From Pedobacter aquatilis (GTDB taxonomy: Bacteria > Bacteroidota > Bacteroidia > Sphingobacteriales > Sphingobacteriaceae), in assembly GCF_030409415.1 (NCBI RefSeq), contig NZ_JAUFPW010000036.1, forward strand, positions 248,001 to 312,000: a stretch of 64,000 bases of DNA, in the 5' to 3' direction. The position numbers and the translations under genes were made by a program. Positions 27,371 to 59,663 of this stretch are shown here, in pieces. The notes below the pieces were generated by a model, which made no database searches, was not told the DNA's origin, and saw only the letters and a list, made by a program, of their open reading frames with translations. How positions within the stretch are numbered: position 1 is the stretch's first letter; each line of letters begins with the position of its first letter.

Positions 27371-27487
27371 GTTTCATAGGTACTGTAGTCCTGCTATTCA
27401 TTCCAATCTTTTTGTTAATTGCTAAAGGTATATATTCAGGGTTGCTGCAAACAAAAAGTATTTCCATTGCTATCAGGTTTATTTAAC
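27371..27487 (+). repeat. dispersed ~110-bp repeat, copy A1
   Basis: Contains the blocks TTTCATAGGTACT, AGTCCTGCTAT, TTCCAATCTTTTT, AAAAAGTATTT and TATCAGGTTTATTTAA in this order. The same blocks recur in order at 56617-56740 and, reversed, at 54956-55064; block subsets recur at 42312-42395 and 46584-46700. It lies directly after the orphan terminator and about 150 bases before the ankyrin gene. No coding frame is supported. It could be a non-mobile palindromic element or a structured RNA. Confidence 0.65.
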
Positions 27488-54955: not shown

Positions 54956-55064
54956 TTAAATAAACCAGATTGAGTGTAAATACTTTTTGGCAAGCAGGTT
55001 TTTATTAAGCATATACTAACATTAACAAAAAGATTGCAACGAAAGCGGGGCTGAAATTCCCGAT
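54956..55064 (-). repeat. dispersed ~110-bp repeat, copy A3 (reversed)
   Basis: On the minus strand it has, in order, GAATTTCAGCCCCGCTTTCG, TTGCAATCTTTTTGTTAATG, CCAAAAAGTATTT and ATCTGGTTTATTTAA, the same order as copies A1 and A4. It lies between the small membrane protein gene and the sucC promoter. With it, the 341-base gap 54892-55232 is largely accounted for. Confidence 0.65.
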
Positions 55065-55107
55065 TAACACAAAACGTTCATTTTCTAAAAAAAACCTAAT
55101 TTTCTAT

Positions 55108-55138
55108 TTGTTTAAAGGCTTTAGAATTGTAGCTTTGG
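55108..55138 (+). promoter_or_regulatory. consensus promoter of sucC
   Basis: TTTG (55108-55111), 19 bases, TAGCTTTG (55131-55138) is an exact match to the Bacteroidota promoter. Transcription should begin around 55145, giving a leader of about 88 bases. Confidence 0.7.
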
Positions 55139-55166
55139 GCAAATTTTGTAGCAAATGAACCCGAAT

Positions 55167-55194
55167 ACCATCAAAATAATTATTTTGATGGTAA
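55167..55194. promoter_or_regulatory. perfect 28-bp palindrome in the sucC leader
   Basis: TACCATCAAAATAA (55167-55180) is followed without a gap by its reverse complement TTATTTTGATGGTA (55181-55194). It begins about 20 bases after the predicted start of transcription and ends 38 bases before the ATG. It could be a repressor operator or an RNA hairpin in the leader. Confidence 0.75.
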
Positions 55195-55232
55195 AGGCTC
55201 CATCTGACAGGTAAACACAAAAATATAAACAG

Positions 55233-56432
55233 ATGAATATTCACGAATACCAGGGTAAACAAATATTAAAAAGTTTCGGTGTTAACGTTCAAGAAGGAAT
55301 TGTTGCCGACACTCCAGAGCAAGCTGTAGAAGCTGCAAAGCAATTAAAAACGGATTATAACTCTGATTGGGTTGTAATTAAAGCGCAAATCCACGCAGGT
55401 GGTCGCGGTAAAGGTGGTGGTGTTAAATTAGCCAAAAACCTTGATGAAGTTAAGCAACGTGCTACCGATATTATTGGTATGCAGTTGGTTACACCTCAAA
55501 CCGGTCCGGAAGGTAAAAAAGTGAATAAGATTTTGGTTGCTCAAGATGTTTATTATCCAGGTGCTTCTGAAACTAAAGAATTCTACATTTCAGTATTGTT
55601 AGATCGTGCAAAAGGTCGCAACATTATTATGTACAGTACCGAAGGCGGTATGGATATTGAAGAAGTTGCTGAACATACGCCACACTTAATCTTTAAAGAA
55701 GAAATTGACCCGAAAGTTGGCTTACAAGGTTTTCAGGCTCGTAAAGTTGCGTTTAACTTAGGTTTAAGCGGTGCAGCTTTTAAAGAAATGGTTAAATTTG
55801 TAACTGCTTTATATAAAGCTTACGATACTACAGATTCTTCGATGTTCGAAATTAACCCGGTATTAAAAACTTCTGATGACAAAGTTATCGCGGTTGATGC
55901 TAAGGTTGATATCGATGAGAACGCATTATATCGCCACGCTGATTACGCAGCAATGCGTGATACCGCTGAGGAAGACCCAATGGAGGTTGAAGCAAGTGCA
56001 AGTAATTTAAACTTTGTTAACCTTGATGGTAACGTAGGTTGTATGGTTAACGGTGCTGGTTTGGCAATGGCAACTATGGATATTATCAAATTAGCTGGTG
56101 GCGAGCCTGCTAACTTCTTAGACGTAGGTGGAACTGCAAATGCTCAAACAGTAAAAGCGGCTTTCAACATTATTTTGAAAGACCCGAATGTTAAAGCTAT
56201 TTTAATTAACATATTTGGTGGCATTGTACGTTGTGACCGTGTTGCGCAAGGTGTTATCGATGCTTACCAGGAAATCGGAAATATTCCTGTGCCAATCATT
56301 TGCCGTTTACAAGGTACAAACGCAGAAGAGGCTAAGAAATTAATCGATGAGTCTGGACTAAAAGTTTACTCGGCAATCGCTTTAAAAGAAGCTGCTGATT
56401 TAGTAACTAAAGTTTTGGCTGAACAGGCTTAA
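55233..56432 (+). CDS. sucC: succinyl-CoA ligase (ADP-forming) beta subunit
   Basis: A 399-residue TCA-cycle enzyme subunit that binds nucleotide and, with the alpha subunit, interconverts succinyl-CoA and succinate. MNIHEYQGKQILKSFGVNVQ is the usual start. The ATP-grasp domain has KAQIHAGGRGKGGGVKLAKN (residues about 47-66) and FEINPVLKT. The C-terminal domain has NFLDVGGTANAQTVKAAF and INIFGGIVRCDRVAQGV. The alpha-subunit gene is not adjacent, as often in Bacteroidota. It has a clear promoter, a palindrome in its leader and a strong terminator. Confidence 0.97.
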   Translation: MNIHEYQGKQILKSFGVNVQEGIVADTPEQAVEAAKQLKTDYNSDWVVIKAQIHAGGRGKGGGVKLAKNLDEVKQRATDIIGMQLVTPQTGPEGKKVNKILVAQDVYYPGASETKEFYISVLLDRAKGRNIIMYSTEGGMDIEEVAEHTPHLIFKEEIDPKVGLQGFQARKVAFNLGLSGAAFKEMVKFVTALYKAYDTTDSSMFEINPVLKTSDDKVIAVDAKVDIDENALYRHADYAAMRDTAEEDPMEVEASASNLNFVNLDGNVGCMVNGAGLAMATMDIIKLAGGEPANFLDVGGTANAQTVKAAFNIILKDPNVKAILINIFGGIVRCDRVAQGVIDAYQEIGNIPVPIICRLQGTNAEEAKKLIDESGLKVYSAIALKEAADLVTKVLAEQA

Positions 56433-56616: not shown

Positions 56617-56740
56617 GTAGTGCTTCGGTTCCGAAAGTCCCGCTATCACTTCAATCTTTTTTAAACTCACTGTCATAGTAAATTTATGGTCTGTGCTAAA
56701 AAAAGTATTTTCGTTCTATCAGGTTTAATTTACTTAAGTA
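56617..56740 (+). repeat. dispersed ~110-bp repeat, copy A4
   Basis: Has GTGCTTCGGTTCCGAAAGTC, CCGCTATC, TTCAATCTTTTTT, AAAAAGTATTTTCGTTCTAT and CAGGTTTAATTTA, in the order of copy A1. It lies 100 bases after the sucC terminator. A CCGTCATTGCGAAGCCG stretch of the other family is just upstream (56525-56541). No gene is supported in 56433-56943. Confidence 0.65.
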
Positions 56741-58802: not shown

Positions 58803-59663
58803 ATGAGACAACTCAAGATAACGCAATCCATTACCAACCGTGAAAGTCAGTCGTTAGATAAGTACTTACATGAAATTGGTAAAGTAGATTTAATAACAGC
58901 AGAGGAAGAGGTAATTTTAGCAAGAAAGATTCGTGAAGGCGACCAAGCTGCTTTAGAGCGATTAACTAAAACCAACTTGCGTTTCGTTGTATCTGTTGCA
59001 AAACAATATCAAAATCAAGGTTTAACACTAGGAGATTTAATTAATGAAGGTAACTTGGGTTTAATTAAAGCTGCAAAACGTTTTGATGAAACTAAAGGTT
59101 TCAAATTCATTTCTTATGCCGTATGGTGGATTCGTCAATCGATTTTGCAAGCGATTGCTGAGCAAAGCCGTATCGTACGTTTACCTTTAAACCAGGTAGG
59201 TTCGTTAAGTAAAATCAGTAAAGCTTTCTCTAAATTAGAGCAAGAATATGAGCGTGAGCCATCTCCAGAAGAATTGGCAGACATTTTAGAAACTACGGTT
59301 GATAAAATCTCTGATACTTTAAGTAACTCCGGCCGTCACGTATCAATGGATGCACCATTTGTTCAAGGTGAAGAAAATACATTGTTAGATGTATTGGAAA
59401 ACCATGAACCAAATACAGATAGTTCATTAATAAACGAATCACTTTCAGAAGAAATCAAACGTTCTTTATCAACCCTAACAGAGCGAGAAAGAGAAATTAT
59501 CGTTTTATTCTTTGGCTTAGGTTCTAATCACCCTTTATCATTAGAAGAAATTGGGGAAAAATTTAACCTAACTCGCGAACGTGTTCGTCAGATTAAAGAT
59601 AAAGCATTACAACGTTTACGCCATACTTCGAGAAGTAAGATTTTAAAATCTTACTTAGGATAA
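58803..59663 (+). CDS. rpoD: RNA polymerase primary sigma factor (RpoD/SigA)
   Basis: A 286-residue sigma-70 without region 1.1, the short form usual in Bacteroidota. [20 protein letters not shown] and [20 protein letters not shown] are region 1.2; [20 protein letters not shown]-type residues (about 62-84) are region 2.2; region 2.3-2.4 is [20 protein letters not shown] (about 95-114) with [16 protein letters not shown]; region 3 follows; region 4.2 is [20 protein letters not shown]. This sigma recognises the TTTG/TAnnTTTG promoters seen across the window. Monocistronic, with its own promoter and terminator. Confidence 0.97.

Follow-up and report, generated by a model that had tools for sequence, protein, structure and literature searches.

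The window, by which we mean the whole analysed stretch of 64,000 nucleotides of Pedobacter aquatilis DNA, carries the gene for the ADP-forming succinate–CoA ligase subunit beta (sucC). In the leader of this gene lies the perfect palindrome TACCATCAAAATAA/TTATTTTGATGGTA, with 14 + 14 bases, zero spacer and zero mismatch. The initial annotation had reported it at 55167–55194; the perfect arms stand, and the true position is one base to the left, at 55166–55193. Its judgement that a chance origin is very unlikely is borne out: given the composition of the window (35% GC), chance alone would produce 0.0008 palindromes with zero loop and 14-base arms per 64 kb, and 0.06 per 4.63 Mb, the size of this genome. 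Zero-loop palindromes with arms of at least 8 bases occur in the window once each with 14, 12 and 8 bases. A perfect 24-bp palindrome, AAGTAAGATTTTAAAATCTTACTT, at 59633–59656 spans the end region of a sigma-70-like ORF (58803–59663). Allowing up to three mismatches, the sucC palindrome is single-copy in the whole genome, and its sequence is absent from 58 other genomes.

The promoter described upstream, TTTG-N19-TAGCTTTG, is likewise present, one base from where it had been placed, and 28 bases separate it from the palindrome, in agreement with the 20–30 given before. It fits TTTG/TAnnTTTG, the Bacteroidota promoter consensus, and genus genomes have a closely similar sequence ahead of sucC whether or not they carry the insertion described below. 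An intrinsic terminator was rejected, as no T run follows the palindrome (the next bases are AAGGCTCC on the plus strand and TTCGGG on the minus strand). A Flavo-1 RNA-like repeat (RF01705) was also matched above the gathering score at 27383–27484 (minus strand), and two such repeats below that score flank sucC, at 54958–55056 (plus) upstream and 56632–56730 (minus) downstream, the upstream one resembling further places in the same genome. The features of the leader are as follows.

55107–55137, plus strand: native sucC promoter (TTTG at 55107–55110, 19 bp, TAGCTTTG at 55130–55137)
55155–55232, plus strand: inserted element, 78 bp (occupied versus empty sucC leaders; covariance-model match)
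55155–55159, plus strand: 5' ATGAA copy, the old sucC start-codon position (ATG1), now upstream (from empty sites reading GTAGCAA-ATGAAT)
55155–55214, plus strand: upstream ORF of 19 codons and a stop, beginning with ATG1, MNPNTIKIIILMVKAPSDR (read from the sequence)
55166–55193, plus strand: main hairpin of the element, identical with the 28-bp palindrome (sequence; paired changes across 25 elements)
55194–55208, plus strand: conserved block AAGGCTCCATCTGAC (mostly invariant or near-invariant columns in the 25-element alignment A1)
55201–55206, plus strand: CATCTG, left side of the start-codon stem (predicted pairing with 55230–55235; paired changes)
55207–55229, plus strand: A-rich tail, presumably where translation now initiates (base composition ahead of ATG2 in 85 elements)
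55230–55235, plus strand: CAGATG, right side of the stem, holding the sucC start codon ATG2 at 55233–55235 (predicted fold)
55233–56432, plus strand: sucC, 399 aa (NCBIfam NF001913, 554 bits, cut-off 370)

Empty and occupied sites

In empty sites of Pedobacter relatives the sucC leader reads ...GGGCAAATTTTGTAGCAA followed directly by ATGAATATTCACG, with GTAGCAA joined straight to ATGAAT. In occupied sites GTAGCAA is followed by ATGAACCCGA, the hairpin and AGGCTCCATCTGACAGATAAAGACAAAAATATAAACAG before ATGAATATTCACG, the full layout being GTAGCAA-ATGAACCCGA-hairpin-AGGCTCCATCTGAC-A-rich tail-CAG-ATGAAT. Because empty and occupied leaders differ in this way, 78 bp are inserted in the present genome with ATGAA at both ends; owing to that repeat, the bounds may equally be drawn at 55160–55237. 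A covariance model matched 55161–55232 in the window (63.8 bits, E 8.4e-9). In eight genus genomes (G000, G001, G003, G004, G009, G016, G027, G034), the sucC leader used as query matched as one piece across the element, and in others it matched either in the coding part only or in two pieces with the element missing. Among 40 sucC rows examined, 15 were occupied and 25 were not, and the 15 loci scanned out of 80 named sucC loci contained no element. The palindrome arms differ among the orthologues, with pairing largely kept. As to conservation in sister species, the structure of the palindrome is thus conserved and its sequence is not.

Empty sites were read for three genes, sucC, transketolase and gldC. 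The transketolase gene is empty in three genomes (G018, G024, G069) and carries a full element in G006 behind a closely similar leader, and ATGAA stands on both sides of the element and once in the empty sites for both sucC and transketolase, as in a target-site duplication. In G013 only the tail of the element is left at this gene, and in G019 and G023 long palindromes of entirely different sequence extend from the old ATG to the CAT of CATCTG, followed by the conserved tail. Three transketolase orthologues (L381, L383, L386) share one tail and have palindromes whose sequences differ entirely. The hairpin arms at these orthologues seem to have been replaced as a pair. At gldC, the site is empty in G012, and the copy in G026 is without its left part and five flanking bases, which looks like a later deletion.

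A dispersed family at start codons

The stretch 55155–55237 matched many places other than sucC in the leader search. Within 60 genus genomes, an exact 3'-end pattern was found at 107 places in 38 genomes, versus 9 for the reversed pattern (three of the 107, L059, L074 and L121, look like chance), and an exact 5'-end pattern at 34 places in 21 genomes, versus 0 for its control. An exact search with the 13 bases GGMTCCATCTGAC in 11 genomes gave 35 matches, distributed over nine of them, and 0 for the control; no master gene was recognised among those of the 35 places that were read. Twenty-five elements with the ATGAA ends left out served to build a covariance model, R1, and the position of its matches can therefore be tested free of circularity. 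R1 matched in 40 of 60 genus genomes (with a maximum of 15 in one genome, G029, and a few matches being the reverse strand of the same palindrome), in 55 of 201 family genomes from 7 of 25 genera, and in 8 of 395 class genomes, four of these outside the family and one of the four weak. The present genome holds a single match at E ≤ 0.001. Elements are about 66–151 bp long, usually 97–103 bp, the sucC copy measuring 78 bp. Carriage by phages or plasmids was rejected, neither collection giving a match at E 0.01; three viral contigs matched by a 16-base pattern had no covariance-model match and appeared unrelated by eye. A second hairpin type, CCGAGC...GCGAGCTC, occurs before start codons in four loci (L045, L077, L322, L352), either replacing the main hairpin or nested in the tail.

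The position of the element was scored in 159 loci, which gave 144 distinct matches of about 40 bits or more after removal of antisense overlaps; these are a sample, the genus and family match lists containing more than were fetched. Loci first found with an ATGAA-bearing pattern or query contributed 56 copies, and searches blind to ATGAA the other 88. An ORF was counted at the 3' end of the element if it had at least 60 aa or was open to the end of the locus. Among the 88 blind copies, 74 have ATGAA at the 5' edge and 67 have an ORF start at the 3' end, 66 of these being ATGAA; for all 144 copies the corresponding numbers are 117, 116 and 114. One of the ORFs counted, at L347, depends on a TTG start and is doubtful.

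Copies lacking a long ORF directly at the end number 21 among the blind 88. Thirteen are explained (one inner tandem copy, three with a further tail repeat, five with a start a few bases inside or beyond the end, four with a gene about 50–85 bases on), and eight are without a recognisable gene start. In the whole sample there are 28 such copies, the eight startless ones all belonging to the blind set, and they fall into the following classes.

Inner copies of tandem arrays, 5 of 28: L048, L096, L097, L100, L330
Further repeat in the tail before the gene, 3 of 28: L322, L352, L375
Start a few bases inside or beyond the end, 6 of 28: L039, L203, L225, L340, L367, L379
Gene about 50–140 bases on, 6 of 28: L062, L101, L210, L329, L334, L337
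No recognisable start, 8 of 28: L227, L234, L345, L353, L356, L365, L366, L369

In three genomes (L334, L337, L210) a 12-aa ORF, MK(L/I)HN(R/S)FYIRKQ, directly follows the element and precedes a similar larger ORF. Outside the family, five of seven loci were read (those other than L412 and L419): an ORF starts within 7 bases of the end in L411, L417 and L420, and about 35 bases on, after an extra hairpin, in L415 and L421, and the 5' edge is ATGAA in four of the five and TTGAA in L420. At L415 and L421 of G406, a genome from another family, a longer hairpin, ACACCTGCC...GGTGTGAC, takes the place of the CATCTG block, followed by the A-rich tail and a start codon. Of 85 target starts, 72 have A directly after ATGAA, 9 have T, 4 have C and none has G, compared with A 69, T 21, C 14 and G 7 for 111 ATGAA starts in general.

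The host genes are varied. Ten target proteins were scanned, of which three scored above their NCBIfam cut-offs (sucC, lpd and a PorY-type sensor kinase), transketolase and a relative of fumarylacetoacetate hydrolase matched below theirs, one gave a weak match and four gave none; mqnD, zwf and gldC are names that we presumptively gave to hosts from their sequence. Copies before sucC (14 sequences), mqnD (8) and lpd (7) are kept in many species.

Similarity among the copies of one genome is not raised everywhere. In G024, copies before unrelated genes are 93–94% identical (L040, L120, L321), and mean identity is 0.886 within the genome versus 0.748 to other genomes. Over eight genomes the within-genome excess is small (0.017, reached by shuffled labels in 10 of 2000), and G155 shows none (0.663 within versus 0.674 to others). 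The closest pair, L365/L366 of G180 at 96% identity, has no clear gene next to it. In a tree of 40 sucC genes, from which L239 and L031 were left out, presence of the element changes six times, at least five of the changes being forced by well-supported branches. Because the sucC tails are alike in both occupied clades, a single old insertion that was then exactly lost more than once is plausible; slippage as the route of loss would be helped by the ATGAA repeat and by the hairpin.

Two stems around the translation start

In the main hairpin, 95% of 418 cells are paired across 25 elements, and 34 cells are changed on both sides compared with 6.3 in shuffles (0 of 500 reaching this value) and far above slid controls, with the reservation that the copies are related and the shuffle counts hence overstate significance. 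G-U pairs account for only about 10 cells, less than mismatches do, and the arms may be preserved as DNA, or one arm may be a copy of the other. The second stem, CATCTN/N'AGATG, holds the start codon. Its variable pair is GC in 69, GU in 18, AU in 11, UA in 4 and a non-pair in 18 of 120 copies, and N and N' are associated (Fisher p 6e-4, G/A versus C/T, related copies being treated as independent). A corresponding stem, CATGTG/CACATG, is found in another family (L411), and L420 is similar.

The sucC leader fold is computed to be stable (z −2.41), and ATG2 is computed to be paired at 37 °C with a probability of 0.99 in the sucC copy and of approximately 0.8 in a typical element, with little change from 10 to 30 °C; in the transketolase palindromes of G019 and G023, the last base of ATG2 is computed to be mostly unpaired. 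The earlier suggestion of a hairpin controlling mRNA stability or translation is upheld as far as a hairpin in the sucC leader is concerned, and a second predicted stem pairs the sucC start codon itself; an effect on translation is something that these stems may have.

The A-rich tail has A at −6 in 74, at −12 in 71 and at −13 in 60 of 85 elements. A at such positions is favoured in Flavobacterium johnsoniae according to the consulted part of PMC6847099, which gives A as favoured at −3 too. Contrary to this preference, −3 is C or T in 82 of 85 elements, whereas starts in general have A in 120 and C in 58 of 378 cases. The start stem costs the favoured A at −3, and the three bases before ATG seem to be held by that stem. 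Upstream ORFs in the 85 full elements have four codons in 54 cases and seven in 22. None of the 85 reaches ATG2, compared with 6.2 expected in shuffles, which may simply reflect common descent.

Origin of the element and its relation to known systems

With a probability of about 0.82, we read the palindrome as the variable stem of one copy of a dispersed, non-autonomous, mobile non-coding element that is inserted or retained at ATGAA start codons. The insertion sits precisely at the start codon, and relatives have empty sites for sucC and transketolase; the element stands before many unrelated genes, has near-copies within one genome and tandem copies, and shows paired changes in two stems. 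Its spread would depend on separate machinery. A copy entering at an ATGAA start, an outcome that is seen whether targeting or retention lies behind it, would part the old 5' leader from the gene, which would then start at the second ATGAA. Judging from the ORF structure, the gene would be read from there by way of the A-rich initiation region of the element, and the stem around the new start codon might lower or time initiation, the paired changes speaking for the structure. Exact loss, to which the sucC tree and the empty sites point, would restore the old start. Transcription of sucC may begin near 55143. At sucC itself, the leader would have been lengthened from about a dozen bases to approximately 90, a short upstream ORF would have been left at the old start codon, and translation would be tuned through the stem CATCTG/CAGATG.

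How the bond with start codons arose can be read in two ways. One, a rival to targeting only, is that insertion occurs at any ATGAA and start-codon copies dominate through selective loss of the others or useful retention. Copies inside genes would break them, those at sucC, mqnD and lpd are kept in many species, and both stems are kept by paired changes, as expected of an RNA in use. By simple ORF calling, however, the ATGAA sites of the window comprise 19 ORF starts, 170 sites inside ORFs and 37 elsewhere, so that 19 of the 56 outside ORF interiors are starts and non-start sites are about twice as frequent (37 versus 19), yet only 8 of the 88 blind copies are without a nearby gene start. We regard retention as a serious possibility, short of an even chance. 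The other, which we put forward tentatively and consider doubtful as a whole, is that translation start sites direct the integration (by way of the mRNA, the initiating ribosome or CAT–ATG base pairing), that the start codon is rebuilt in a regulatory stem, that a hairpin-controlled set of genes is acquired by transposition, and that the mover is not of the Y1 type that hairpin repeats usually have.

A MITE or REP-like repeat moved by a Y1 transposase (IS200/IS605 or RAYT) appears unlikely. Hairpin repeats of small size that go with such transposases are already known (PMC2817692, PMC3116915), and a Y1_Tnp (PF01797) match was present in 38 of 60 genus genomes, the present one included. However, the profile matched nothing in G013, G014, G018, G019, G024, G026 or G029, the last five being the genomes richest in exact 3'-end matches, and the Y1 transposase was on this ground rejected as the present mover; a very divergent Y1 protein would escape such a search. 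Nor did an exact-pattern search reveal a gene-bearing version with the same ends at 30 left-end loci, where CCATCT was close by in 26 and, by eye, the other four had a variant or a nearer right end.

A retro-element copied through RNA, with 5'-truncated copies, is a still less probable origin. It would account for the copies that keep their 3' end and lack the left arm (L049, L066, L089, L091, L101), and the start-codon bond suggests a target at the mRNA level. A reverse transcriptase domain, RVT_1, is found in 35 of 60 genus genomes, among them the copy-rich G019, G026 and G029, but in the search for this family it was absent from G024, and in G018, likewise copy-rich, only a sub-cut-off fragment of 58 aa appeared, by which RVT_1 as the mover is only weakened. 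Moreover, the 5' loss at gldC takes five flanking bases with it and the G013 transketolase gene keeps only the tail, both of which fit later deletion. The mover may have been lost, or may lie outside the Y1 and RVT_1 kinds.

That the leader is an ordinary gene-specific sucC RNA, such as a riboswitch, attenuator or thermometer, is very improbable. The stable fold and the predicted pairing of the start codon would suit it, but the element precedes unrelated genes and its presence at sucC comes and goes on the tree (six changes, at least five forced). A known Rfam leader was rejected, Rfam 15 giving no match at 55155–55232 and none in six element loci at E up to 1, and so was an RNA thermometer, the computed pairing of the start codon being near constant from 10 to 37 °C. 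Least credible of all is the operator that the initial annotation proposed, a DNA site bound by a dimeric TCA-cycle regulator, which would explain a perfect palindrome shortly downstream of a promoter and the presence of the element in several species at both sucC and lpd, genes of related enzyme complexes, but is rejected by the single genomic copy and none in 58 other genomes, by arms that vary among sucC orthologues with no half-site conserved across regulon genes, by the unrelated genes among the other hosts and by the 25 of 40 sucC rows that do without it.

Small mobile repeats are usually treated as neutral intergenic debris. The present element changes the leaders of central genes (sucC, lpd, transketolase), and the new start codon can be hidden in a stem kept by paired mutations. 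If insertion were truly directed, it would require a targeting principle of a kind that we do not know for bacterial transposons; if retention were the cause, ready-made parts for translational control would be spread by transposition. Automatic gene calling at element loci could choose the wrong ATG.

Among known systems, mobile translational bypass elements of yeast mitochondria are likewise small hairpin insertions with a repeat at both ends that translation tolerates. Unlike in those, no bypass is needed here, as the second ATG starts the ORF. Bacterial MITEs, as portrayed in the consulted part of PMC10969869, are likewise short, non-coding and dispersed with a short direct repeat at their flanks; the words 'start codon' do not occur in the main text of that review. 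The ends of the present element, ATGAACCCGAC and AAACAGATGAA, by contrast do not form inverted repeats, its only palindrome is internal, exact-pattern searches of the 30 left-end loci showed no parent transposon, and the element sits at start codons. Rickettsia palindromic elements, according to the same part of that review, are also palindromic and tied to ORFs, but lie in frame inside them and add a peptide (PMC10969869), whereas this element lies before the ORF and leaves the protein unchanged. With the REP/REPIN and RAYT systems, as given in the consulted parts of PMC2817692, PMC3116915 and PMC3733652, it shares the nature of a non-autonomous hairpin repeat in host genomes. It differs from them in number, with at most 15 covariance-model matches per genus genome (some on the reverse strand) against more than 100 copies stated for REPs, in having neither the GTAG nor the CGTC end tag of PMC3733652 in its A1 consensus, in the lack of any Y1 match in those genomes where exact 3'-end matches are most numerous, and in its fixed position relative to genes. 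The titles and opening lines of abstracts in the open-licence PMC literature held no description of such a start-codon element, which is weak evidence of novelty. As a short mobile repeat with a hairpin, the element belongs to a known kind, and it is set apart by its bond with start codons, its start-codon stem, its lack of terminal inverted repeats and its lack of a Y1 partner.
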